A DNA stretch of 64,000 nt from Streptomyces sp. NBRC 110611 (lineage in GTDB: Bacteria > Actinomycetota > Actinomycetes > Streptomycetales > Streptomycetaceae): the NCBI RefSeq assembly GCF_001590865.1, contig NZ_BBUY01000005.1:248001-312000 (forward strand), written 5' to 3'. A program made the translations under genes and the position numbers. This document shows positions 38,912 through 50,277 of the stretch, piece after piece (position 1 is the stretch's first letter; each line of letters starts with the position of its first letter). Under the pieces are notes generated by a model. It saw only the letters and a program-made list of their open reading frames with translations, was not told where the DNA came from and ran no database searches.

Positions 38912-40510
38912 CTAGGCAGTGAGTTCGAGCGATGACCACCGCTCAGAGGTCCACACGGGCGTGATCTCGATGTGCGGCCCGGGGAACATGTGGACTCGGT
39001 CGATGAGTGACGCGAGGATGCCCCGCACGACCGACACGGGGAGGGTGTCCCACTCCTCCAGCAAGTTGCGGACCGCGGGCAGGTAGGGCGCCGCGCCTTC
39101 CGCCTTCACTTCTTCGAACTCCAGCTCGCTTAGTTGCTTCTCGATCTTCTCGCGCTGCTTCTTGAGCGTCGCTTTCGTCCGCAGGAACTCGTCGCGGTCG
39201 AGATCACCAAGAGCGTGCAGTGTGTTGGCATTGTCGATGCCGGCCTGCACCTTGAGCAGCCGCGCGTCGAGCTGGGCTTTGACTTTCTTCAGGTCTGGCT
39301 TTCCTTCCTCCACTTCCGGTAGCGGTGCAGGATTGGCGTCGACCTCGCCAGCAACGCTCTGCAACCATTCGTAGGTCTTCTCTTCCGCATACGAGCGCCG
39401 AACATAGGCACCAGTGCAGGAACGATCCCGTTCGTACGCCTTACAGCGGTACTTGTTTGACGTATCGCCAGCATTGAAAACGCCGGCCCGCGATGCCTCG
39501 CATACGCCACACCAAGTCAGCCCAGCGAGAGGGTACTTAGGTTGGCGCGCTCTTGGCGGCGTCTTCTTGGTCCGCTCGCGTGCGAGTAGGTACGCGTCCC
39601 AGATGGCTTTAGCTTCTTCGGCCTGTTCCTCTTCGCCCTTCTCCTCTCCTTCTTTGGGCAAGCCGATGAGCGGTTTGTGCGCTCCGGGTATGTGGATGTA
39701 GTGCGCCCGCTTCTTGCAGGGCTCTTCGAGCCCTTGGCAGGTGTCGGGCCGGTGGACGTGCAGCAGGCCGGCCGCAAAGCCCGAGTCCATGTACCAACGC
39801 AGCGACTCATGTGTCCAGGGCTTGCCGCGGGTGTTCTTGTACCCGTTGTGGTTGAGCCAGTTGGTGAGTGGCATGTACCCCTCGCCGTTGACGTACCGCA
39901 GGAAGAGACCGCCGTACGCTGGCCCTGCGTCGTTGGGTTCGTATCGCTCTTCTTGTGGCTTGTCGTCGGGGCCGATGCGTCGATGCCACGTGTACCCGGC
40001 ACGCCGTCCGCCCGCGGCGGGCAGTCCGTGCTCGCGCCGCCAGTCGTGGGTTTCTTTCCACTGCTCGCCGGCGCGGTCGGACTCGAACGCTGCGACCTCG
40101 AACAGCATCCCGCGGTGGAACTTTCCCGCCGCCGTAGTGGCGTCGACTTCTTCGGTAGCCGATTGCAACTCGCCGCCAACGCGGTTGACTCGGGCGAGGT
40201 TGATGGCAACGCCGTGTCGTGTGCGGCCAAATCGGGAGTACTTCCAGACGGCTATTTCCCGGGCTTCTTGCTTCTCGACGGCGACGATGGCTTCCATGAT
40301 CCGTCGTTTGAAGTTGCGGCCGGTCTTGTCAAGGTCGGGGATCCAACGAACGATGATCCGGTTGTGGCGGCGCGCCCATTCGAGAATGGTTTTCTTCTGT
40401 AGTTCTGGGCTGATCTTCTCCTCTCGCCAGGTTGAAACCCGTATGTACCCGATGGCGGGCACCGGTTCCTGTGAGGTGATGGTGCTCACCAGTGACAGGC
40501 GTGGTGTCAA
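38912..40510 (-). CDS. int: Large serine recombinase (phage integrase)
   Basis: A 532-residue large serine integrase. The catalytic domain opens AIGYIRVSTWREEKISPELQ with nucleophile Ser26. WKYSRFGRTRHGVAIN supplies the catalytic Arg pair. A recombinase domain (AGYTWHRRIGPDDKPQEERYEPN) leads to the zinc ribbon (CGVCEASRAGVF, then YRCKAYERDRSCTGAYV) and a coiled-coil segment (LKKVKAQLDARLLKVQ to EKIEKQLSELEFEEVKAEG) that controls directionality. It starts at a TTG with GGGAGGAAGG upstream; a GTG seven codons in is an alternative. It is adjacent to the attachment junction in rarD. Excision would need a recombination directionality factor not identified here. Confidence 0.95.
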   Translation of the reverse strand: MTPRLSLVSTITSQEPVPAIGYIRVSTWREEKISPELQKKTILEWARRHNRIIVRWIPDLDKTGRNFKRRIMEAIVAVEKQEAREIAVWKYSRFGRTRHGVAINLARVNRVGGELQSATEEVDATTAAGKFHRGMLFEVAAFESDRAGEQWKETHDWRREHGLPAAGGRRAGYTWHRRIGPDDKPQEERYEPNDAGPAYGGLFLRYVNGEGYMPLTNWLNHNGYKNTRGKPWTHESLRWYMDSGFAAGLLHVHRPDTCQGLEEPCKKRAHYIHIPGAHKPLIGLPKEGEEKGEEEQAEEAKAIWDAYLLARERTKKTPPRARQPKYPLAGLTWCGVCEASRAGVFNAGDTSNKYRCKAYERDRSCTGAYVRRSYAEEKTYEWLQSVAGEVDANPAPLPEVEEGKPDLKKVKAQLDARLLKVQAGIDNANTLHALGDLDRDEFLRTKATLKKQREKIEKQLSELEFEEVKAEGAAPYLPAVRNLLEEWDTLPVSVVRGILASLIDRVHMFPGPHIEITPVWTSERWSSLELTA

Positions 40511-40627
40511 CTCGCCTTCCTCCCTTGGGGATTGAATGCGGGTAGTACCGCCGACGCTCGGCCGCGGTTCGCGGCCGGCGTCGGACGCCTTGTGTGGGGT
40601 GGGGGGAGATGTGGGGGGAAGCGCAGC

Positions 40628-40876
40628 TTACGAAATGGTCCAGAGGGAGGGGCCGGCGTGCTGGATGCCGAGGCGGTAGCCGTCGCGGTAGGCGCGTTCT
40701 GCTGCGTGTCGACGTTGAGTGATAGCGATAGCGGGTACCGCAGCGCACAACACGGCGAGTCCCGACCGCGTGACGTTGCGACGGGGGGTGGGCAAGCAGG
40801 CGCTGGCCCCCACCATCGCAGCGCCGACTGCTGCGGCCGTGATCGCCGCTGCTGCGACCCGCTTCTCGTTCTTCAA
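40628..40876 (-). CDS. Small membrane protein upstream of the integrase
   Basis: An 82-residue frame from a TTG at 40876, with GGGGAGG about 10 bases before. MKNEKRVAAAAITAAAVGAAMVGASACLP is a signal-anchor-like hydrophobic segment. NVTRSGLAVLCAAVPAIAITQRR is a second one, followed by a charged C-terminus. No family is recognised. Its position between integrase and repressor suggests a lysogenic-phase gene, perhaps superinfection exclusion (speculation). Confidence 0.5.
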   Translation of the reverse strand: MKNEKRVAAAAITAAAVGAAMVGASACLPTPRRNVTRSGLAVLCAAVPAIAITQRRHAAERAYRDGYRLGIQHAGPSLWTIS

Positions 40877-41096
40877 GTCGTCGATCCTCCCCAGATCTGT
40901 GTGTCGCTCAACCGTTGTTCCCTGGGCTGCACGAGGGGGGTGCCTCTTCGTGGACCAGGGAAGATCGAGCCGTTATCTGACCTACGCGGCGCCTTGTGGC
41001 GATCTTGGTGGGTCTGACACACAGTGTGCTGTACCGGTCTGACATCCGCGGCTGGATGTCCTGACGGCGCATCACTCGGTCTTTGCTCGGTTGGCC

Positions 41097-41549
41097 TTAT
41101 CTGTCGTTATCCGTACTGTTTTGCGCCTCTTGACGCTGCATTTCCGTGACGAAGGTCACGAAGAGCTGTAGGCGCTGCTGGTCGGTGATGCCGAGTAGCA
41201 GCGCCGCTTCTTCGGCCGTGATCCGGCGGCCACCCTCGGCTGGCGGCGCGGTGCGGGTGAGCTCTTCCTCGGTCGCCCACCCGGAGCGCACGAGTAGCTC
41301 GCCGAGCGATACGCCGAGCGTTGGCGCCATCGCCGCGAGCACGTCGGGCCGCGGGACTGATACCTCGTTGATGATCCGGGAGACGGTTGCGGACGACACG
41401 CCGGCCCTCTTGGCAAAGTCGCCTCGGCCGCCGCTACGTGGCCCGGATACGTCGTACCCGAGGGCCGTGAGTCGATCTGAGAACCAGCGCGCGAACTCGC
41501 GCAGACCCCCCTCGGGTGTGTTCTTTCTTTCCTGTTCGTTCCTTCGCAT
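41097..41549 (-). CDS. XRE-family repressor-like protein
   Basis: A 150-residue protein. The central helix-turn-helix GDFAKRAGVSSATVSRIINEVSVPRPDVLAAMAPTLGVSLGELLVRSGW (about residues 42-92) is a lambda-repressor-like fold. An N-terminal helical segment and a charged C-terminus (ITAEEAALLLGITDQQRLQLFVTFVTEMQRQEAQ) that could dimerise flank it. It is divergent from a Cro-like gene across 246 bases of AT-richer DNA with repeated dyads. By position it is the lysogeny repressor. It has no peptidase domain, so induction would not rely on RecA-stimulated self-cleavage. Confidence 0.85.
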   Translation of the reverse strand: MRRNEQERKNTPEGGLREFARWFSDRLTALGYDVSGPRSGGRGDFAKRAGVSSATVSRIINEVSVPRPDVLAAMAPTLGVSLGELLVRSGWATEEELTRTAPPAEGGRRITAEEAALLLGITDQQRLQLFVTFVTEMQRQEAQNSTDNDR

Positions 41550-41795
41550 GGATGCAATCTACCTAGCCAGAACGCAACATGCCGCATCTTGACGGATTAC
41601 TAACGCGCACTTTGCTGGCCAGAAAACACCATGTTCACCTCTTCGTGGACATATGGGCAGCATACATGGGGTAGCCGGACGCGCACTGGAGATATTCGGG
41701 GATAGGTCACAGCAGCTAACTTTCTTGCCAGAACGCAATCAGTAGGGTTACGTTCCTTCTCGTCAGAACGTAAGGACGACGACCAGGGGGCACCC
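41550..41795. promoter_or_regulatory. Prophage immunity control region with repeated operator-like sites
   Basis: A spacer with markedly lower GC. GCCAGAACGCAA-type sites occur at about 41566-41576 and 41728-41737, with a weaker version GCCAGAAAACAC at about 41618-41628. The dyad TTACGTTC (41748-41755) / GAACGTAA (41766-41773) has a 10-base spacer. Divergent promoters for repressor and Cro-like gene must lie here. Confidence 0.7.
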
Positions 41796-42002
41796 ATGCA
41801 CTACGACCATGCGCGCCTACTTGCTGCAATGAACGCAGCGGGCGACACCGACGGCGCCCGGGCCGCTCGGCGGCTGGACGTTCACCCGGCCACCGCTTGG
41901 CGGTTGCGCGTCGGGCGCAGCCAGCCCAGTACGCGCACTCTTGCCGCCATTGAGCGCGCGTACGGACTCACCGCTAGTGACCTGTTCCGGAGTGCGGCAT
42001 GA
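41796..42002 (+). CDS. Cro-like small HTH protein
   Basis: A 68-residue protein consisting only of a helix-turn-helix: ARLLAAMNAAGDTDGARAARRLDVHPATAWRLRVGRSQPSTRTLAAIERAYGL. The ATG follows GGGGG. It is the first rightward gene and overlaps the next by four bases (ATGA). By size, fold and position it is the Cro-like early regulator, likely competing with the divergent repressor at the operator-like sites. Confidence 0.78.
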   Translation: MHYDHARLLAAMNAAGDTDGARAARRLDVHPATAWRLRVGRSQPSTRTLAAIERAYGLTASDLFRSAA

Positions 42003-42214
42003 GCAGTGACGCCGTTCGGATGTTCGCCATCCGTAGCGCCGCGCAGCAGCTCGCCGCCGGCGTCGCGCTGCGTGAGTCCAAGAGTCCGGCGGAGGCTGCC
42101 CGGGACGCCTGGTATCCGGGGCATCGCCTCGGGTCCGTTGAGGCCATCGAGGCGCACATACGTGCAGATCGCGCGCGCCGCCGGGCGGCCGTCGAGCCCC
42201 TGGTCGCTGCCTGA
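41999..42214 (+). CDS. Small early phage protein of unknown function
   Basis: A 71-residue protein, MSSDAVRMFAIRSAAQQLAAGVALRESKSPAEAARDAWYPGHRLGS, helical with an Arg-rich C-terminus (ADRARRRAAVEPL). It overlaps the Cro-like gene (ATGA). Similar helical proteins with WxPGH are frequent in actinophages but have no assigned role. Confidence 0.65.
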   Translation: MSSDAVRMFAIRSAAQQLAAGVALRESKSPAEAARDAWYPGHRLGSVEAIEAHIRADRARRRAAVEPLVAA

Positions 42215-42298
42215 AACGTAGCTGGGGCGCCTTGACGGCGCCCGGGCGGCACACACCCACCCATTAGCTTTCTCTCAAGAAAGAAACGTCGAGGTTTC

Positions 42299-43378
42299 AT
42301 GACTCTCGCCCTCTCTGAGCAGCCGACCACCCCCGCCGCGCTCACTCCTGCTGCCTACAGCGTTCCCACCCCCGCCGGAGCGGCGCATGTCCAATACATC
42401 CCCGCTCCGCACGGCGCGCCGGCTGACGCGCCCCGGGTGTTCACCGTGATCAACGCCGTCATGCGCGACACGGTCCCGGTCGGCAAAGACCAGGTGAACG
42501 CCCAGCAGCGGTACAAGTTCCGTGGCATCGATGACCTGATGTCGGCTGTTGCTGGGCCGATGCGCATGCACGGCTTGTTCATCCTGCCCGAGGTTGCCGA
42601 GCAGTCCGCCGAGCGTCGCGGCGAGAAGATGACCACCGTTCGGCTCACGATGCGCTACTACCTGTACGGGCCGGCCGGGGATGCGCTGGTTGCCACGGTG
42701 CCGGGTGAGGCCGCCGATTTCGCGGACAAGGCGACCAACAAGGCGATGTCGGCGTCGATGAAATATCTCCTGTTGCAGGTCCTCATGATTCCCGTGGATG
42801 CGCGCAGCATCGACGACGGCGACCGCGACCACCCCGCCGAGCCGACCGAGCAGCAGCGCGCCGAGCGGGCCGCGCAGCAGCGCCGCCGAGCCGAGCGCCA
42901 GCAGCCGCGCGGGCAGCGTTCCCAGCAGCTGCGCCGCAGCAGCCGCGCCGAGGCGGGACCGTGGGAGCAACCGCCCCAGCAGGCCCCGGTCGGCCCTCCG
43001 CGTGACTTCCTGGCCGAGGCGACCGCGGCGCCGAGCCCCGAGGCGTTTGCCACGGTGCGCGCCGCCGCCGTCGAGGCCGGCGCCCCGGCGGACTACCTTG
43101 CCCGCCTCGACGCGATCGCCGCGCAAAAGCGCACCGCCGCCCAGCAGCCGCAGCGCCCTCGCGAGCCGCAGCCGTCCAGGCCCGACCAGGAACGCGCCGC
43201 CCTGCTCGGGGAGATGTACGACGCCGCCCGGGCGGCCGGGCTGGTCGACAACGCCGAGGCCGATGAGACGTTCGCCAACCGGTACGGGCTCCAGCCCGGC
43301 GAGGCCAGTAGCGATCAGCTGCGCGAGATGCGCGATGACCTGCTCGACCACGCCCGCGCCGCCGGGGGTGCCCAGTGA
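42299..43378 (+). CDS. ERF-family single-strand annealing protein
   Basis: A 359-residue protein. The ERF domain spans about residues 40-170: VFTVINAVMRDTVPVGKDQVNAQQRYKFRGIDDLMSAVAGPMRMHG, then TVRLTMRYYLYGP and DFADKATNKAMSASMKYLLLQVLMIPV, the family core. ERF proteins anneal ssDNA in phage recombination. The C-terminal half is a Gln/Arg-rich linker (EQQRAERAAQQRRRAERQQ) and a helical tail (LLGEMYDAARAAGLVDNAEADETFANRYG). It overlaps the next gene by four bases. A spacer of 84 bases with an A-rich leader precedes its ATG. Confidence 0.9.
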   Translation: MTLALSEQPTTPAALTPAAYSVPTPAGAAHVQYIPAPHGAPADAPRVFTVINAVMRDTVPVGKDQVNAQQRYKFRGIDDLMSAVAGPMRMHGLFILPEVAEQSAERRGEKMTTVRLTMRYYLYGPAGDALVATVPGEAADFADKATNKAMSASMKYLLLQVLMIPVDARSIDDGDRDHPAEPTEQQRAERAAQQRRRAERQQPRGQRSQQLRRSSRAEAGPWEQPPQQAPVGPPRDFLAEATAAPSPEAFATVRAAAVEAGAPADYLARLDAIAAQKRTAAQQPQRPREPQPSRPDQERAALLGEMYDAARAAGLVDNAEADETFANRYGLQPGEASSDQLREMRDDLLDHARAAGGAQ

Positions 43379-43974
43379 ACGGCGCCGAGCAGCACGTCGA
43401 GTCGTTGCGTGATCTCGCCGTCGAGGCCGCCGCGTTGAAGCTGCTGGCCGAGCGTGTTGCCGCAGCACAGAAGGACGTACGCCAGCGCACGCAACTCGCC
43501 CTTGACGCCGCCGCCGAGCGTGACGGGGTTGAGCGCGTGACCGCCACCCTGCCAACCGGTGAGACCGTCGCCACGATCGGGCTACGCAAGGGCGAGACCG
43601 GCCCCGTCGTCGTCGACGAGGACGCGTTCGCCCGATGGGTACGCGCCACGTTCCCCGATGAGCAGTGGACCGAAACGGCAATCGTGCGCCGGGTCAAGCC
43701 GTGGAAAGCGGCCGAACTGCTCGCCGAGATGGCCGCAGCTGGCGCTGCGCGCGTGGTCGTCGCCGACCAGCAGGTCGACGAGACAACCGGCGAGGTCATC
43801 GCGGATGCCGTCGCACACGACGTACCGGGCGTCGCCATCAAGCCGACCCGCGCACGCACACACGCGGTGACGTGGCGGAAGGGCGGGAAGGAAGCGACCG
43901 CCGAGGCGTGGCGCTCCGGCGCCCTCGCCCAGCAGATTGCCGCCCTTACCGCGCCGGACGACGAGGCGACATGA
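43375..43974 (+). CDS. Phage protein paired with the ERF gene, unknown function
   Basis: A 199-residue protein from GTG 43375 (GTGA overlap with ERF). The N-terminal 45 residues form a probable coiled coil (VESLRDLAVEAAALKLLAERVAAAQKDVRQRTQ). The remainder includes a beta-rich segment (VTATLPTGETVATIGLRKGETGPVVVDEDAFARWV). Its place next to a recombinase, where phages often carry a nuclease or Gam-like protector, invites that role, but no catalytic or Gam motif is visible. Confidence 0.7.
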   Translation: MNGAEQHVESLRDLAVEAAALKLLAERVAAAQKDVRQRTQLALDAAAERDGVERVTATLPTGETVATIGLRKGETGPVVVDEDAFARWVRATFPDEQWTETAIVRRVKPWKAAELLAEMAAAGAARVVVADQQVDETTGEVIADAVAHDVPGVAIKPTRARTHAVTWRKGGKEATAEAWRSGALAQQIAALTAPDDEAT

Positions 43975-44141
43975 GCCGCGCCCACCGGTGTGCGCACTGG
44001 TCAGGGGGCGCCGGGCGGTACTGCAACGCGTCCGGCGCCCGCCGATACGTCATCGGGTGGCGCTGTCCCCGCCATACTCCGGCCGCGCTCGCCGGCCGCG
44101 ACGAACCCCCTTTCACCCTTCCTGTGAGGAAAGCGCGTTGA
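43971..44141 (+). CDS. 56-residue Cys/His-rich phage microprotein
   Basis: ATG 43971 overlaps the previous stop (ATGA). RCAHWSGGAGRYCNASGARRYVIGWRCPRHTPAAL has three Cys and several His in a spacing (C...C...C-P-x-H-T-P) often seen in actinophage small zinc-binding proteins. It is likely a metal-binding accessory of the early operon. Its stop overlaps the TTG start of the replication gene. Confidence 0.62.
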   Translation: MSRAHRCAHWSGGAGRYCNASGARRYVIGWRCPRHTPAALAGRDEPPFTLPVRKAR

Positions 44142-45028
44142 CCCTGGATGCCTCGGATTGGGTCTGGAACCGGTCCGAATCGCGTGGACTGGCCCGAACG
44201 ATCCTGCTCGCCATCGCGGACAAGTGCCCCGATGCGAGCTGCACCGCCTACGCCGGTACCGCGATGCTCATGCAGCGCACCCGCGCGGCGCGCTCATCGG
44301 TCCGGGCTGCGGTCGACAAGCTGCTCGACTCCGGCGAGCTGGAGATCGTTACCGGCTTCCTCGGGCCGAACGGCGAGACCGTCTACAGGCTGCCGCACGC
44401 CGTCGGACACGTCCGCCAGCAGTCCGAGGTAGCCGACATAAGCCGGGCCGGTGACCGGCCCGGTCCGGATCCCGACCCGGGCCGGTATCAGGCCCCCGGA
44501 GGGCCGGTAACCGGCCCCGGGGGGAGCGGTAACCGGCCCGAGGGAGGACCGGAAGCCAGCCCGGGGGAGGACCGGTATCCGGCCCCGGGGGGAGCGGAAG
44601 CCAGCCCCCATAACAACAGCAGCTCTCTACTACAACAGCAGCAGCAGCAGCACGCGCCCGCGCGCACGAGCGGTTCCACGGTCATCGAGCAGTTGCGCCC
44701 CCTCGTCGGCGCGCTCGACGCCGCAGGCGTCGCGGTGCGCTGGTCGCTCGGCCTCGGCGAGCAACGCGACGTGCACCGGCTTGTCGAACGGCACGGCGTC
44801 GCCGCCCTGGTCGAACTCGCCGCACACCGCACCGCTCCCGGCGACGCCCCCAAATCGGCCCGCTACTGGCTCAAGGTCTGGTCCGACCTCAACCACGCCC
44901 CCGCCACCTCCCCCGCCGCTAGCACGAACGTCGTGCCCTTCCGCAGCCGCGCCGCCGCTCCCCCCGCCTCGACCCGCCACAACCTTCTCGCCGCCCTCGA
45001 CCACATCGAATCCCGAGAGGACGCCTAA
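44138..45028 (+). CDS. Phage replication initiator-like HTH protein (O-like) with embedded iterons
   Basis: A 296-residue protein from TTG 44138 (TTGA overlap). The N-terminal winged helix is ARTILLAIADKCPDASCTAYAGTAMLMQRTRAARSSVRAAVDKLLDSGELEI (about 20-72), as in phage O-type and RepA-like initiators. The middle (about 105-175) is Gly/Pro-rich, encoded by seven imperfect DNA repeats, followed by SSSLLQQQQQQH. The C-terminal half is helical with a conserved-looking ARYWLKVWSDLNHA. The layout (HTH, origin DNA inside the gene, helicase-loader-contacting C-terminus) parallels lambda O. The next gene would then be a loader candidate (inference). Confidence 0.75.
   Translation: MTLDASDWVWNRSESRGLARTILLAIADKCPDASCTAYAGTAMLMQRTRAARSSVRAAVDKLLDSGELEIVTGFLGPNGETVYRLPHAVGHVRQQSEVADISRAGDRPGPDPDPGRYQAPGGPVTGPGGSGNRPEGGPEASPGEDRYPAPGGAEASPHNNSSSLLQQQQQQHAPARTSGSTVIEQLRPLVGALDAAGVAVRWSLGLGEQRDVHRLVERHGVAALVELAAHRTAPGDAPKSARYWLKVWSDLNHAPATSPAASTNVVPFRSRAAAPPASTRHNLLAALDHIESREDA
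44448..44607 (+). repeat. Seven iterons inside the initiator gene, 22-23 bp period
   Basis: Fourteen-base units near (C/G)CGGTAACCGGCCC start at 44448, 44482, 44504, 44526, 44549, 44572 and 44594. After the first, spacings are 22, 22, 23, 23 and 22 bp. The period is not a multiple of three, so the units are read in different frames and conservation is at the DNA level. A less GC-rich tract (CATAACAACAGCAGCTCTCT) follows at about 44609. Together they look like a replication origin with an unwinding element. Confidence 0.78.
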
Positions 45029-45732
45029 TGCAGCCCCGAGAGATCGCCGCCCTACTCCACCGCATCGGCCTCAACGACAGCCGAATCGACCGACAACTCG
45101 CCGACGAAAACAGTGCCGAGCGCGCCATCACCCGATGGACCGAAGCCCTAACCAATGTCCCTGCCACGCTGCCCGACGGGTCGTGGGACGTCGGACGTGC
45201 AGTCCGCAACTACTACGAACGCAAAGGCGGCGACAACAGCGCGCAGTACCGGCCCATGGAGCCCCACGACGTCCTCGCCGCGTGGGCACCGCACCGCACC
45301 GCCCTCATGCAGCGCCACACCGACCCCGCCCCGGCCGTCGACCCGGACAACGTCGCCGCCTACCTCGCCGAGCTGCGCACGGGCCGAACCGCCGTTGCCA
45401 CCGGGCAAGCCACCCCGGTCGAGCAGCGCGCCCTCACCGCCGCGCCCATCGACCCAAGGATCGCCGAGCGGCTCCACCAAATCGGCTCACCGATACCTGA
45501 GCAGGCCCGTGCCCAACTCGCCCAGTTCCGGCCGCGCGCCGCCGACCGCGAGGCCCTCGTGCGGGCCGGCGGACCCGACCCACTCGCCGTCGCCTGCACC
45601 TGGTGCCACGCCGAGCCCGGCAAGCCGTGCCGCGGCGGATGGCGCCCCAACGGCAAGGGCCGCCGCATCAAGAACAGACCGCACGACAGCCGCATAGACC
45701 TCGCCGCCCAGCAGCAAGGAGTCGCCGCATGA
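45028..45732 (+). CDS. Phage early protein with C-terminal zinc-finger
   Basis: A 234-residue protein. The N-terminal 110 residues are helical (REIAALLHRIGLNDSRIDRQLADENSAERAITRWTEAL), and the C-terminal finger is ACTWCHAEPGKPCRGGWRPNGKGRRIKNRPHDSRIDLA (about 190-228). This matches the C-x2-C-x-A-x-P-G-x-P-C...H-x-x-R pattern found in many actinophage proteins. It starts one base after the initiator gene stop codon begins to end. Position after an O-like gene suggests a replication accessory, but no ATPase motif is visible. Confidence 0.7.
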   Translation: MQPREIAALLHRIGLNDSRIDRQLADENSAERAITRWTEALTNVPATLPDGSWDVGRAVRNYYERKGGDNSAQYRPMEPHDVLAAWAPHRTALMQRHTDPAPAVDPDNVAAYLAELRTGRTAVATGQATPVEQRALTAAPIDPRIAERLHQIGSPIPEQARAQLAQFRPRAADREALVRAGGPDPLAVACTWCHAEPGKPCRGGWRPNGKGRRIKNRPHDSRIDLAAQQQGVAA

Positions 45733-46169
45733 CCCCCCGCCACGACAAAACCCGCAACCTCACCCGCTACCGGGTGACCGCTACCTGGCCGGCCCGCACG
45801 GTCACCTTCAGCAACTCCGACCGCCGCCAGGTCAACGCCAAGGCCCGCAAGTGGGCCAAGGACGGCGCCCTGGTGGTAGTCGAGCGCGCCAAGAGCTACG
45901 AGTGGCAGCACGACCGCACATTCGACGGCCCGGCCATGCTCGCCGAGCAGGAGCAGGCACGCGCCGAAGCCGAGGCCGCAGCCCACCGACGCGCCGTCGA
46001 CGAGCAGCTCGCCAAGCAGACGGCACGATTCGTCGAACGCGTCCTTGCCGAGCACGCCGAAGCGGAGCACGACCGGCACGCACGGCTCATGCAGCGCCCG
46101 CCCGTTCCCCGGCGCGCCGAGGGCCGCCTCACCGCTGCGCACGTCGTTGCCGGCCGGGGCATCCGATGA
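45729..46169 (+). CDS. Phage protein with helical charged C-terminus
   Basis: A 146-residue protein. A short beta-rich N-terminus (LTRYRVTATWPARTVTFSNSDRRQVNAKARKWAKDGALVVVERAK) resembles a small strand-helix domain. A long acidic/basic helix follows ([45 protein letters not shown]), predicted coiled coil. The ATG overlaps the previous stop (ATGA). No function is assigned. Confidence 0.65.
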   Translation: MTPRHDKTRNLTRYRVTATWPARTVTFSNSDRRQVNAKARKWAKDGALVVVERAKSYEWQHDRTFDGPAMLAEQEQARAEAEAAAHRRAVDEQLAKQTARFVERVLAEHAEAEHDRHARLMQRPPVPRRAEGRLTAAHVVAGRGIR

Positions 46170-46357
46170 CCGCCCGCGCCGTCGTCGGACTGCTCGCCGG
46201 TGCTCTGCACGAGCTGCACCCGAGCCTCTATGACGCTGCCCGGCACCCGGTTGACCCTGCCGCCCGCCGTGACGCCGAGCTGCTACTCGCTGCCCTCGGC
46301 GAACAGGGCATGACGGTGACCGCTCATCCCACAAAGGGCACGCGAGTGCAGCCCTGA
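46166..46357 (+). CDS. 63-residue phage protein of unknown function
   Basis: ATG 46166 overlaps the previous gene (ATGA). MTARAVVGLLAGALHELHPSLYDAARHPVDPAARRDAELLLAALGEQGMTVTAHP is a small mixed alpha-beta protein. It is the end of the first early operon; a dyad and a new ribosome binding site follow before ssb. Confidence 0.6.
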   Translation: MTARAVVGLLAGALHELHPSLYDAARHPVDPAARRDAELLLAALGEQGMTVTAHPTKGTRVQP

Positions 46358-46365
46358 ACGCGATA

Positions 46366-46387
46366 ACGTTCTCTCTAGCAAGAACGT
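46366..46387. promoter_or_regulatory. Second ACGTTC-N10-GAACGT dyad, upstream of ssb
   Basis: ACGTTC (46366-46371) and GAACGT (46382-46387) are separated by 10 bases, the same half-sites and spacing as the dyad at 41749-41772 in the immunity region. It lies 27 bases before the ssb ATG. Confidence 0.65.
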
Positions 46388-46414
46388 GGTTCACGCAAGA
46401 ATGAAAGAGGATGC

Positions 46415-46873
46415 ATGGCAGGCGAAACCGTCATCACGATTGCCGGCAATCTTGTCGACGACCCCGAACTACGCTTCACACCCGCCGGCGCAGCCGTCGC
46501 CCGCTTCCGCGTGGCATCCACCCCACGCACCTTCGACCGCCAGACCAACGAATGGCGCGACGGCGAACCCCTGTTCCTGAACTGCTCAGCATGGCGCCGA
46601 CTCGCCGAAAACACCGCCGAGTCCCTGACCCGCGGAACCCGCGTCATCGTCACCGGCCGGCTCAAACAGCGCACGTACGACGACCGCGAGGGGAACAAGC
46701 GCACCGCCTACGAGCTCGACGCCGAGGAGATCGGCCCCAGCCTCAAGAGCGCAACCGCCACCGTCACCAAGAACGGCCGCAACAACGCCCAGCAGCCGAC
46801 GCACGAGCCCGCCACCGACCCATGGGCCAACAGCCTGCAACAGCCGCAGTACGCCGCCGAACCGCCGTTCTGA
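46415..46873 (+). CDS. ssb: Single-stranded DNA-binding protein
   Basis: A 152-residue OB-fold protein: [107 protein letters not shown] spans residues 4-109 in pieces typical of SSB. The C-terminal tail is Gln/Asn-rich and ends AAEPPF, a variant of the DDIPF partner-binding tip. It has its own upstream dyad and ribosome binding site (AAAGAGG). It would serve phage replication and ERF-mediated recombination. Confidence 0.94.
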
Positions 46874-46962
46874 TCGGCGCCGAGCGACCGGTCGATGCCG
46901 CTCCCATGCGCGCGAGAACAGCCCACAGCAACCCCTCACCGTCACAGCAAAGGACACCGCCA

Positions 46963-47220
46963 ATGACTTCCACCATGCCCCCGCGCCTCACCGAAGCCCG
47001 CGTCGTTGGTGCGCTGCCCGCCGACGGTTGGTTTGTGGAGTACCGGGAGGACGACGGCACGACGTTCTCATCGCCACTCGCCGCGTGGGCGGTACATGCC
47101 TACGGCAGCGTTGCTGACCTAGTCCCGCTCGACGTCGACCGCAACGGAACCACCGACGACCCGCGCACGTGCTCGAACTTCGTTCGCATCTATCGCCGCG
47201 ATCACGAATCGACACCGTGA
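46963..47220 (+). CDS. 85-residue phage protein of unknown function
   Basis: Starts MTSTMPPRLTEARVVGALPADGWFVEYREDDGTTFSSPLAAWAVHAYGSVADLVPLDVD. The beta-rich sequence looks like a small barrel. It follows ssb by 89 bases and ends just before a strong 12-bp hairpin, so it closes this transcription unit. No family is recognised. Confidence 0.65.
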   Translation: MTSTMPPRLTEARVVGALPADGWFVEYREDDGTTFSSPLAAWAVHAYGSVADLVPLDVDRNGTTDDPRTCSNFVRIYRRDHESTP

Positions 47221-47231
47221 CACGGCACACC

Positions 47232-47270
47232 AGGGGCGCGCCCATCTGACCAACGGTCGGGCGCGCCCCT
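47232..47270 (+). terminator. 12-bp terminator hairpin in the prophage early region
   Basis: AGGGGCGCGCCC (47232-47243) pairs perfectly with GGGCGCGCCCCT (47259-47270), with a 15-base loop, 12 bases after the upstream stop codon. Confidence 0.85.
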
Positions 47271-47314
47271 CGTGGCCGTTTCCTGCTCCGTACCGACAAC
47301 GGGAGTTGTGCACC

Positions 47315-48091
47315 ATGCCTACCGCCGAGACTGCCCGCCGTGAGGGCGCAGCCGCGCTGCGCGCCGTACGGGAGTTGTGGGGTGAGCTGCTTGTCGCCAT
47401 CGAGACCCCGCCGGCCGACGTGTGGCCGCCGCGGCAACTCGCGCACACTCTGCGTCCGGTCGCCGATAGCCCGGTCGTCGAGCGCGCCCCGCTGATACTG
47501 CGTGAGCACCCCGCCCCGCTCAACGTCACCGCCCTTGATGCTGGCATTGCCGTCGAGCAGGCGCTGTTCGACCTTGCCGACACCCTCGCCGCCGCCGTCC
47601 AGCGCGCCCCCCTCGACGACCCCCGACGCTGGAAATACCGCAGCCAGACCGCCCCCGGTAGTCGGGCGCATGGGCTGCACTGGGCCGCACTGTGGATCGA
47701 GGGCCGGCTGCTCGACGAGGACACCGAACCCGGGCAGCAGCTCGACGGAACCCTCACCGCCGCCCCCTACCTCCCCCTGCCCGAGCATCTGCTGCACGAG
47801 GCGCACCGCGTCGCGCTCACTGCCGAGGCCCGCGTGCTGCGCGCCCTCGGCCTCGACCAGCGCGAGACGCCGATACCCGACCGGCCGTGCCCCTGGTGCG
47901 GCGGCGAGCTCACCGTGCACACCGGTCCGGATGAGCCCCCAACCGTGACATGCGTCGGTGGGGCGAGTTGCAGCGCGCCCGTGGCCCTCGACCTTTGGGG
48001 CCGGCGCGTGTGGGAGTGGTCGGACCTGATGGGCCTGGCGGATGCTCTCGACGCCTCCGAGGGGCGCGGCGACATGGCGCGGGTGGCGTGA
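47315..48091 (+). CDS. Phage protein with C-terminal four-Cys zinc finger
   Basis: A 258-residue, largely helical protein (EGAAALRAVRELWGELLVAIETPPADVWPPRQLAHTL). The C-terminal finger is CPWCGGELTVHTG then VTCVGGASCSAPV (about 193-224), followed by LWGRRVWEWSDLMGLADAL. The domain layout recurs in Streptomyces phages and plasmids. No enzyme motif is seen. It has its own leader after the terminator at 47232-47270 and is followed by a 132-base spacer with a promoter-like sequence. Confidence 0.68.
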   Translation: MPTAETARREGAAALRAVRELWGELLVAIETPPADVWPPRQLAHTLRPVADSPVVERAPLILREHPAPLNVTALDAGIAVEQALFDLADTLAAAVQRAPLDDPRRWKYRSQTAPGSRAHGLHWAALWIEGRLLDEDTEPGQQLDGTLTAAPYLPLPEHLLHEAHRVALTAEARVLRALGLDQRETPIPDRPCPWCGGELTVHTGPDEPPTVTCVGGASCSAPVALDLWGRRVWEWSDLMGLADALDASEGRGDMARVA

Positions 48092-48153
48092 TCGGTACCG
48101 GCAATTCGACTGATGTTCTTGCGGGTTGAGTCGCTTCTTCCCTCAACAGGGGG

Positions 48154-48181
48154 TTGTGTCCTGTGTTTATTGGGGTAATGT
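48154..48181 (+). promoter_or_regulatory. Promoter-like element before the middle gene block
   Basis: TTGTGT (48154-48159) and TAATGT (48176-48181) are separated by 16 bases in a locally AT-rich stretch, 43 bases before the ATG at 48224. It fits a vegetative sigma-factor promoter moderately well. Confidence 0.4.
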
Positions 48182-48223
48182 ACTGACTACACACCGAGTT
48201 GCCGCTCGGTTCACACCTCAGAC

Positions 48224-48643
48224 ATGGAGACCCCCATGCAGCAGATGACCCTCGCCGAACGCGCCGCCGTCACATATGCCACGGTCGGCCGCGGCGCCCG
48301 CGTCCATTACTCACCGAGCAACGATGAAACGCTGTGCGGTCGTCTCGTCGGCGAGTACCTCGACGTCATAGACGCTTCCGAACTGCTCGACGAGAAGGGG
48401 CACAAGATGTGTGCCCGTTGTTGGCAGGCTGCCGAGAGGCGCGCCGAGGCTCGCCGACTCGCGCAGCAGCCCGAGCAGGACGTCGTCGAGGTCGAGCTCG
48501 CCGAGACCGTCGAGGCCATCGAGCAGGCCGACGCCGCCGAAGGGACGTGGCGCGGCGGCTGGATCCCCAGCACTCTGGCTCCGGCTGACGAGGTGCTGTT
48601 CGACGTTGTCCCGGACGTCGGGCAGGGCGCCCTCTTCGGCTGA
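48224..48643 (+). CDS. Small Cys-domain protein (domain A of a modular set)
   Basis: A 139-residue protein. RVHYSPSNDETLCGRLVGEYLDVIDASELLDEKGHKMCARCWQAAERR (about 25-72) has a Cys followed about 24 residues later by C-x2-C-W, a likely metal site. The acidic C-terminus contains EGTWRGGWIPS. The same Cys domain reappears fused at the N-terminus of the protein at 49498. An ATG at 48236 is an alternative start. No function is known. Confidence 0.65.
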   Translation: METPMQQMTLAERAAVTYATVGRGARVHYSPSNDETLCGRLVGEYLDVIDASELLDEKGHKMCARCWQAAERRAEARRLAQQPEQDVVEVELAETVEAIEQADAAEGTWRGGWIPSTLAPADEVLFDVVPDVGQGALFG

Positions 48644-48741
48644 CGGTTCCCTGCCCGCCCGGGGCCGCACCCGGGCGGGCAGGTGTCAGTGCCGAGCGGA
48701 AGACTGTCGAGACCAACACCACGGCCAGGGAGCGCCAAGAC

Positions 48742-49431
48742 ATGAGCACCAACGACAAGCAGCCGCACGTCGCCCACTACACGCGCCGCAGAGAAACCCC
48801 GCCGCGTACCCAGGCGGAACAGGTCGGCGAAATCATCCGGGCCCACAAGGACGCCGCCCCGCGCGAACGCTTCCTGCACGACATGCTCAACGCCACGGCC
48901 GAGGACTCCCCGCCGGCGCCGGAGGGGCAGGCCGCCGAAATCCGCCAGAAGAGCACCCTGGCGCCACACCGCGCCAAACTCGCCCGTGCCTTGGAAAATG
49001 AGTTGGCGAGGCATGAGGCCGAGAAGGCCCGTGCCCGTCTCGCCGACGCGGGCGCTTATGAGCGTGAGGGCGGGAACGTACCGAACCTGGTGGAGGTCAT
49101 CTACGAGGCGTACCTCGTAGGCGCGGTGCCCGCCTCGGAGATAGCCCGCGAATTGCATGTCACCGAGGAGTACGTGCGTGAGGTCGTTCGCACGCACGCG
49201 CCGTTCTCGTGGTTCGTCGAGGTGCGCACCGATGCCGGGAAGTGGGAGGAGCAGGACGGCTCCGAGGACCTGTGGCCGGCGGTCGATGTCGAGGAGATAG
49301 CGCGGGGCCTGCTCGCCGACTCCGTGAGTGCGGGCACTCGCGCACGTGTGCGGGTGTGGAAGGGGCACGGCCCCGCACCCGACGCCGAGCCTGTGTACGT
49401 CGCGTACACGCACGACCAGGACGCCAACTAG
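48742..49431 (+). CDS. Phage HTH protein (domain B of a modular set)
   Basis: A 229-residue protein. A basic, disordered-looking N-terminus (THYTRRRETPPRTQAEQ-like) and helical middle precede a helix-turn-helix EVIYEAYLVGAVPASEIARELHVTEEYVREVVRTHAPFSWFVEVR (about 118-162). A domain of about 60 residues follows with LLADSVSAGTRARVRVWKGHGPAPDAEPVYVAYT. The C-terminal 110 residues align by eye with those of the protein at 49498. It may bind DNA. Confidence 0.65.
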   Translation: MSTNDKQPHVAHYTRRRETPPRTQAEQVGEIIRAHKDAAPRERFLHDMLNATAEDSPPAPEGQAAEIRQKSTLAPHRAKLARALENELARHEAEKARARLADAGAYEREGGNVPNLVEVIYEAYLVGAVPASEIARELHVTEEYVREVVRTHAPFSWFVEVRTDAGKWEEQDGSEDLWPAVDVEEIARGLLADSVSAGTRARVRVWKGHGPAPDAEPVYVAYTHDQDAN

Positions 49432-49497
49432 CCCACCCGCTACGGTTCGCCCGCCTCGGAGAATGGCCGAGGCGGGCCAGGATGGAGACAACCCAGC

Positions 49498-50277
49498 ATG
49501 AGCACCCCCGAGCGTGCATACGGCCGGACCACGGCCAAGGCGCGCACCGTGCACCTCGTTTTGGGCGACAGGACACTCTGCGGCCGGGCCGTACGTATGG
49601 CCGTGCCCGCCGAGCAGGCTCTCGACGGCCCGTTGTGCGGCGTCTGTGAGCAGGAAGAGGCCCGCCACGCCATGACCATGCACGTCGAGGGCGCGAATAT
49701 CCGCAGTGCGACCGGCCCCGGGAGCCCGGCCGCGTACGTGGCTGCGCTGCGTAGCAGCGACGACGTGCCGATGCCCGCCCCGGTCGTCGAGTGGCTGCGG
49801 CAGATCGTCGAGGCCGCGGCGCCGGCCAAGGGTACCGACGGCAAGATCACGTATGACGATGCCCGGCGTATCCGGCGCGAGGCCGTCGCCCTCGACGCGG
49901 TGCGCGACGAGCTCGTACTCGATGCCTACGTGAGTGGTACGCCCGCGCTACAGATTGCCGATGATCTGCTGCTGACCTCGGCCTACGTGCACCGCATCGT
50001 CAAGAACAACCCTTGGTCGGCCGTGTGGCGCGCTGAGCGGCTCGACGGTGAGCAGTGGGTGCTGCTCGGCGATGAGGAGCGCGGCGCCATCGAGCGGCCG
50101 ACGGGGAATGCAGCGCGTGTGGCCGAGAGGCTGCTGCCGCCGATCATTGCTAAGGGCTTTACCGGCGTACCGCTGCGCGTACTCGTGTGGCGTGACGTCG
50201 AGGGCGCCGTCGATGAGGCGCGCGCCGTTGCTGAGTACAACCCGGGTGCCTTTCCGTCACACCCCGGGCGCCAATAG
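49498..50277 (+). CDS. Phage protein fusing Cys domain A with HTH domain B
   Basis: A 259-residue protein. Residues 15-55 (RTVHLVLGDRTLCGRAVRM, then GPLCGVCEQEEARHAMTMH) match the Cys domain of 48224. Residues 135-255 (VLDAYVSGTPALQIADDLLLTSAYVHRIVKNNPWSAVWRAER, GFTGVPLRVLVWRDVEGAVDEARAVAEY) match the HTH and following domain of 48742. It is 66 bases after that gene. A DNA-binding regulatory role is plausible but unproven. Confidence 0.65.
   Translation: MSTPERAYGRTTAKARTVHLVLGDRTLCGRAVRMAVPAEQALDGPLCGVCEQEEARHAMTMHVEGANIRSATGPGSPAAYVAALRSSDDVPMPAPVVEWLRQIVEAAAPAKGTDGKITYDDARRIRREAVALDAVRDELVLDAYVSGTPALQIADDLLLTSAYVHRIVKNNPWSAVWRAERLDGEQWVLLGDEERGAIERPTGNAARVAERLLPPIIAKGFTGVPLRVLVWRDVEGAVDEARAVAEYNPGAFPSHPGRQ

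Follow-up and report, generated by a model that had tools for sequence, protein, structure and literature searches.

A probable replication origin within the initiator gene of an SV1-related Streptomyces prophage

Is an array of short repeats in the middle of a phage initiator gene kept for the protein that it encodes, or is it an origin of replication? The question is raised by a window of 64,000 nucleotides (64 kb; 'the window' is this whole stretch) from the 7.9-Mb genome of Streptomyces sp. NBRC 110611, in which an earlier note, made from the letters alone, had proposed a lambda-like origin inside the initiator gene of an actinophage. The region is a prophage within the chromosome of a Streptomyces, and 'actinophage' was thus correct in kind. 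It encodes a serine recombinase, a repressor, a Cro-like protein, an ERF annealing protein, the initiator, the product of the next gene, a single-strand binding protein, terminase, portal and capsid. The order of the early genes is similar to that of phage SV1 and its relatives (gene context was compared in six of the seven phages matched: SV1, Picard, Mojorita, ToastyFinz, Eklok and SoJo), and a contig from IMG/VR is 100% identical across the initiator. The genes needed here are as follows.

38912-40510, minus strand: serine recombinase
41097-41549, minus strand: repressor
42299..43378, plus strand: ERF-type single-strand annealing protein (PF04404, E = 8e-13)
44138..45028, plus strand: replication initiator gene, 296 amino acids, with a TTG start after GAGGAAA (matches to phrog_6643 and phrog_391)
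45028..45732, plus strand: next gene, overlapping the initiator gene by one base, in a lambda-P-like position (phrog_8924)
46415..46873, plus strand: single-strand binding protein (PF00436, E = 5e-30)

The initiator matches phrog_6643 ('replication initiation protein') over most of its length (residues 1-278, E = 2e-39) and, weakly, phrog_391 ('replication initiation O-like'; residues 1-161, E = 5e-6). A Pfam scan at E ≤ 0.1 returned no family, RepA_N included. Its homologues are annotated as a replication initiation protein in SV1 and Picard and as a RepA-like replication initiator in SoJo. AlphaFold2 predicts two confident domains joined by a region of low confidence at residues ~107-180; this Pro/Gly-rich region, encoded by the array, is predicted to be a disordered linker.

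44138..44416, plus strand: predicted N-terminal winged-helix domain, residues 1-93 (AlphaFold2; pLDDT 91-98 per 10-residue block over residues 1-90)
44291-44332, plus strand: predicted recognition helix, residues 52-65 (AlphaFold2)
44687..44896, plus strand: predicted C-terminal helical domain, residues 184-253, presumed to bind a partner (AlphaFold2; pLDDT 93-96 per block)

The role of the C-terminal domain is presumed by analogy with lambda O and RepA_N proteins. Comparison of the model with the PDB returned many winged helices, none outstanding (best Z 8.8; no Foldseek match at E ≤ 0.001). Among them were 4pql and 4pt7 (Z 7.6 and 7.3), which we take to be RepA_N structures.

Within the linker-coding region we found eight 17-bp near-palindromes of the GGGCCGGTAACCGGCCC type, spanning 44445-44607.

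44445..44461, plus strand: iteron 1, GGGCCGGTGACCGGCCC, a perfect palindrome about its central base
44462..44478, plus strand: iteron 2
44479..44495, plus strand: iteron 3
44501..44517, plus strand: iteron 4, GGGCCGGTAACCGGCCC, a perfect palindrome about its central base
44523..44539, plus strand: iteron 5
44546..44562, plus strand: iteron 6
44569..44585, plus strand: iteron 7
44591..44607, plus strand: iteron 8

The six units other than 1 and 4 keep 8-12 of 16 symmetric positions. The repeats are present where the earlier note had placed them (44448-44607), with a slightly wider span; its count of seven becomes eight and its 14-bp unit becomes a 17-bp near-palindrome. The period of 22-23 bp that it gave describes the last five units, whereas the first three abut at 17 bp, so that successive unit starts (44445, 44462, 44479, 44501, 44523, 44546, 44569 and 44591) are spaced 17, 17, 22, 22, 23, 23 and 22 bp apart; Tandem Repeats Finder reports periods of 23 bp and 45 bp as well. 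The units were said to be out of codon phase, and they do occupy all three frames of the gene (1, 0, 2, 0, 1, 0, 2 and 0). Their position between the helix-turn-helix and C-terminal halves is borne out by the AlphaFold2 model, in which they are encoded in the central linker flanked by the winged-helix and C-terminal domains, as in RepA_N plasmid initiators. Three matches to a DnaA-box consensus, each with two mismatches, lie in 43900-45200.

Dyad-symmetric sites bound by winged-helix dimers are typical of operators, and the predicted fold of the initiator resembles MarR-like regulators, among others. The palindromes could accordingly be sites for transcriptional control by the initiator or by the phage repressor and not an origin, a reading that we regard as quite unlikely. 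At a threshold of at least 15 of 17 matches to GGGCCGGTAACCGGCCC, 5 of the 8 units are recovered and nothing else in the 64-kb window (best elsewhere, 14), so the sites are confined to a coding array; at 12 or more of 17 there are 68 places, of which the array accounts for 8. A scan that covers only part of the range of Streptomyces promoters found no sigma-70-like promoter in 41500-45800, and the repressor and Cro-like genes are at least 2.4 kb away.

To place the array in a family, homologues were collected by several searches. Ten phage records found by tblastn represent seven phages (SV1, Picard, Mojorita, ToastyFinz, Eklok, SoJo and Tubberson), and two plasmid records were also found, one of them phiDSM40276. 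A match occurs in 17 of 61 sampled genomes of the genus. Profile scans of viral contigs added the best 80 of 136 and the best 80 of 165 relatives, and a profile scan of genome contigs with an alignment as the query added the best 80 of 158 loci, all titled Streptomyces; the genome-contig scan queried with the window protein alone confirmed no relative. The counts of homologues are lower bounds biased towards close relatives, because each scan kept the best 80. A profile of the N-terminal domain identified 250 reading frames in 257 sequences, which gave 169 distinct proteins once identical ones were merged: 135 close (E < 1e-25) and 34 distant.

The record of phiDSM40276 (NZ_CP114204.1), from S. 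nigrescens, is linear and 20.9 kb in length and was deposited as a plasmid; it encodes a terminase, portal and RecT together with the initiator homologue, and is a phage-like element.

The linker is predicted to be disordered and is rich in proline and glycine, which could mean that the array is an amino-acid repeat, or the product of high-GC drift, with no function as DNA. We therefore counted pairs of 12-mers within two mismatches of each other, direct or inverted, in the 90 codons after the N-terminal domain, and compared the counts with those obtained when synonymous codons were shuffled within the gene, which keeps the protein and the codon usage. The window linker has 184 such pairs, against 34 ± 14 in 200 shuffles, none of which reached 184. 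Across the family, the observed count lay beyond all 200 shuffles for 155 of 169 linkers, compared with 3 of the 169 N-terminal parts and 15 of the 145 C-terminal parts. At the 5% level the numbers are 161, 29 and 48, so the regions outside the linker are not free of signal; the C-terminal part can contain the end of some arrays. The strictest linker test was passed by 126 of the 135 close homologues (nine fail) and by 29 of the 34 distant ones. The 14 linkers that fail include two that are alike (L193 and L017, reached by 166 and 46 of 200 shuffles), a truncated gene (L244), L016, which is split in frame at the array, L221, and the short L025, L085 and L086; six of the 14 were reached by just 1-4 shuffles.

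The units themselves were located with a palindrome-constrained motif search, used in place of an earlier motif finder that had mixed true sites with chance ones; its nine starting templates were family-like, so the following counts lean towards family-type sites. Three or more palindromic units were found in 134 of 135 close homologues. They lie in at least two codon frames in 133 of these 134 genes and in three frames in 108. Spacings of 22-24 bp make up 419 of the 813 measured, with 113 of 20 bp and 103 of 16-17 bp, and 662 of the 813 are not multiples of three. Whole layouts are shared within clades: 17, 17, 22, 23, 22, 23, 22 in 7 genes, which the window layout resembles; 24, 22, 36, 20, 23, 23 in 22 genes; and 36, 30, 24, 46, 23 in 15 genes. 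The earlier note had named two outcomes that would count against it, homologues without repeats and repeats conserved only as amino acids. The comparison of homologues that it proposed instead shows that the repeats persist, as units and as an excess at the DNA level, and that they do so across codon frames. One relative, L221, has a mostly in-frame period of 33 nt, as an amino-acid repeat would. Codon frames and synonymous shuffles together led us to reject the amino-acid reading, to which we give next to no credence. At the level of sequence comparison, the iterons are demonstrably held by selection beyond the encoded protein.

Several relatives depart from the common layouts. The protein encoded by L221 is longer (338 amino acids), and its array is of GGGCCGGTNACCGGCCC. 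In L016/L031 (G046:C218:37554-38235), the initiator relative occupies two separate reading frames that divide at the array, and is either a decayed gene or the result of a sequencing error in the repeats. L025, L085 and L086 encode proteins of 146-154 amino acids that consist of the N-terminal domain and a short tail, without significant repeats, and could be regulators or competitors of the initiator. Helix-turn-helix initiator-like genes on distant viral contigs (L088-L115) also have repeats in the linker, and the in-gene array looks to be wider than Streptomyces phages.

Synonymous shuffles do not separate selection on DNA from selection on RNA, and palindromic units can fold as RNA; the units might thus be stem-loops in the mRNA that act in, for example, attenuation or mRNA stability. 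In the sense of the mRNA, 634 of 6629 pairs are broken as A-C and 217 as G-T, the opposite of what tolerance of G-U pairs would leave; these counts bear on sense-strand RNA, not on antisense RNA. No Rfam family was found in 40000-50000. Both results disfavour RNA hairpins, as does the coupling of the units to a DNA-reading helix described below, and we consider this explanation very improbable.

If the array is an origin, a site at which the strands could open might be expected beside it, and the earlier note had described a less GC-rich tract after the repeats. The lowest 40-bp GC content in the gene does start at 44610, with two bases between it and the last unit.

44610..44649, plus strand: candidate DNA-unwinding element, at the GC minimum of the gene (GC 0.475)

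The tract has a GC content of 47.5%, compared with a mean of 71.7% for the gene, and ranks in the lowest 0.8% of 40-mers between 41 and 63 kb; taken alone, it is not significant, being equalled by 25 of 300 synonymous shuffles. Its position recurs in relatives. Removal of 40 of the 169 genes as distant, incomplete or short left 129 complete ones. In these, the distance from the N-terminal domain to the start of the lowest-GC 40 bp is 50-399 nt, and in 127 it is 100-299 nt. Measured from the array ends given by the palindrome-constrained search, the median start is 1 nt past the last unit (quartiles -2 and +2), and the start falls between -20 and +60 in 110 of 129 genes. GC content at third codon positions is 0.57 in the tract and 0.85 elsewhere, a difference that includes the effect of selecting the stretch as the minimum; against 300 synonymous shuffles, the tract is significant at the 5% level in 62 of 129 genes and was never reached in 24. 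A less GC-rich tract at a fixed place after the array also argues against operators.

We then asked which protein residues vary together with the sites. The 134 genes include several near-identical proteins and have an effective number of 40. Bases 2, 3 and 4 of the half-site are the most variable. Among 88 columns of the N-terminal domain, the best-coupled residues after background correction are 52 for base 2, 56 for base 3 and 53 for base 4, all three of which lie where the predicted recognition helix begins; the strongest of all pairs is residue 56 with base 3. Arginine at residue 56 goes with G in 102 of 112 genes and valine, isoleucine or leucine with T in 18 of 18, whereas glutamine goes with C in 3 of 4 and with A in 1 of 4. 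Also coupled are residue 45 (base 2) and residues 36 and 48 (base 3). For bases 6, 7 and 8, variable in 7, 7 and 12 genes, the best-coupled residues (79, 35 and 18) lie outside the helix, and residue 18 with base 8 is the second strongest pair of all.

These couplings are not equally robust. With 13 cluster representatives, residue 56 with base 3 alone stays first, and 6 of 500 permutations reach it; the couplings of bases 2 and 4 drop from first place. In a pairwise ranking, residue 53 leads for both base 2 (with 52 third) and base 4, and residue 56 leads for base 3. A FastTree phylogeny built without the recognition helix has 3-4 supported independent changes for each of residues 52, 53 and 56, too few for a firm test of independence; for residue 56, an average of 2.7 of 3 changes are accompanied by the same change of base, which is not significant. 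There are 70 close pairs (masked identity ≥ 0.8) that differ at base 3, and residue 56 is unchanged in every one of them, so it does not explain these differences. Judged from the alignments, the iteron and the DNA-reading helix of the initiator seem to change together.

Larger exchanges point in the same direction. A search with the window protein found seven homologues with other or diverged N-terminal domains, and five of them have different in-gene repeats: the linker repeats of L034, L029, L026, L027 and L028 were matched by 0, 0, 0, 1 and 0 of 300 shuffles. Each of the seven genes has 0-2 family-type sites, compared with a family median of 6. The N-terminal domains of L026-L028, which are also counted among the 34 distant genes, are diverged and not unrelated (family profile E = 2e-6 to 3e-5). 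L005 and L030, with a third kind of N-terminal domain, show no significant repeats in the linker (counts as high arose in 76 and 97 of 300 shuffles), which speaks against a universal rule.

One of the five, L034 (G000:C3:349512-350231, minus strand), is a second initiator-like gene in the same genome, with a different N-terminal domain and GTCCCGGAAACCGGGAC-like repeats. As both differ from those of the window gene, two origins of different specificity may share one host.

Arrays of palindromes also occur as centromeres, and the winged helices matched by the initiator model include TubR and the pNOB8 centromere-binding protein. Moreover, a neighbouring small gene (43375-43974), between the ERF gene and the initiator gene, has a weak match to KorA/TrfB (E = 0.0012, below Pfam's cut-off). 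A parS-like partition site, or another protein-loading site, is nevertheless highly unlikely in our view: no ParA or ParB family was found among 10 proteins scanned, the coupling goes to the recognition helix of the initiator itself, and the serine recombinase gene points to an integrating phage, which would need no partition while integrated. In SoJo, the gene after ERF is annotated as a host nuclease inhibitor.

The array is best compared with lambda, whose record has four 18-bp iterons, at 39034, 39054, 39078 and 39101 (spacing 20, 24 and 23). Analysed in the same way, lambda O gives a linker count of 34 that none of 300 shuffles reached, with weakly positive N-terminal (6 of 300) and C-terminal (18 of 300) parts; its iterons occupy three frames, and its GC minimum over 40 bp begins 3 nt beyond iteron 4. 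The parallel drawn in the earlier note is thereby strengthened, as both loci have dyad iterons in three frames in the middle of the initiator gene, an AT-rich tract directly after them and an overlapping gene downstream, a second replication gene in lambda and possibly so in the window. They differ in that the window initiator has no Pfam match and a weak match to the O-like PHROG (E = 5e-6), that the window has eight GC-rich 17-bp palindromes, three of them abutting, and that the GC content of the tract is 0.475, compared with 0.20 in lambda. A further difference is that the next gene of the window has no detectable relation to a helicase loader.

That next gene belongs to phrog_8924, a family of unknown function; so does its counterpart in all 62 aligned relatives that were scanned, and SoJo gp40, in the same position, is annotated 'helicase loader'. 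A search for a helicase-loader fold gave no match: the model of the product (mean pLDDT 85) has no fold match in the PDB (best E 2.6), and no significant sequence match was found there (best E 0.073). The parallel to lambda P consequently rests on position and one annotation, and the next gene is a possible helicase loader.

Origins inside initiator genes are already established, in lambda and Stx phages (PMC7466680), SPP1 (PMC6316719) and pSK41-type plasmids (PMC5703833). In the Stx phages P27 and 933W the origin is described as having 6 iterons where lambda has 4, and all of them lie in the central part of O (PMC7466680). In the Bacillus phage SPP1, oriL is described within gene 38, which encodes the origin-binding protein, with direct repeats and an AT-rich unwinding element (PMC6316719); by description, in-gene repeats and an AT-rich element are what it shares with the window. 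The RepA_N plasmid pSK41 is reported to have a winged-helix N-terminal domain, an origin encoded by the central linker and a C-terminal domain with a host-specific role, and in chimeric pPR9 the N-terminal domain and origin differ together from those of pSK41 while the C-terminal domain is kept (PMC5703833). The domain-swapped homologues of the window initiator resemble pPR9, although the window protein has no RepA_N match in Pfam and RepA_N initiators belong to plasmids, not phages. A similar likeness is seen with the RepA of PLE satellites, in which the DNA-binding domain is reported to covary with semi-palindromic origin iterons and the C-terminal domain to be conserved (PMC8263062); the PLE origin is intergenic. 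For repA of cluster A mycobacteriophages, an actinophage helix-turn-helix initiator that by description is like that of the window, the parallel with lambda led to the proposal of an origin either within the gene or upstream of it (PMC7157519). In their account of the regions between the tail genes and parS-L, the authors identified no repeated motifs (PMC7157519), whereas repeats are found here. Where the present family goes further than known in-gene origins is in the coupling of its sites to the recognition helix.

We conclude that the array is very likely the replication origin of an SV1-related Streptomyces prophage, situated in the manner of lambda inside the gene of its own initiator and bound by the product of that gene. 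This conclusion draws on linker repeats in excess of shuffles, units in several frames, spacings shared within clades and the position of the tract, and equally on the coupling to the helix, repeats that change with the N-terminal domain, the gene context, the presence of a homologue on phiDSM40276 and the excess of A-C over G-T broken pairs in the sense of the mRNA. The initiator protein probably binds the palindromic sites; that it binds the array and that replication starts there we infer from sequence. Each palindrome would be bound by two initiator molecules by way of their recognition helices, the array so occupied would form a nucleoprotein complex that melts the tract (44608-44655), and the C-terminal domain, perhaps together with the product of the next gene, would bring in the replicative helicase of the host.

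In the open-access literature, we found no report of a mapped origin for this family of Streptomyces phages, and for other actinophages the proposal for cluster A repA (PMC7157519) is just a guess. If our reading is correct, the origin can be predicted to the base in more than 100 relatives. A further lesson for annotators would be that selection may preserve the 'disordered Pro/Gly linker' of such proteins for the sake of its DNA. The family would, in addition, provide a natural set of initiator and iteron pairs with which to test a recognition code. In that code, whose chances we put at about even, the DNA-binding domain and the adjoining array evolve and move as one cassette, in which residue 56 sets base 3 of the half-site (R with G; V, I or L with T) and residues 52-53 bias bases 2 and 4; with distinct cassettes, prophages that share a Streptomyces host would be able to replicate independently of one another.
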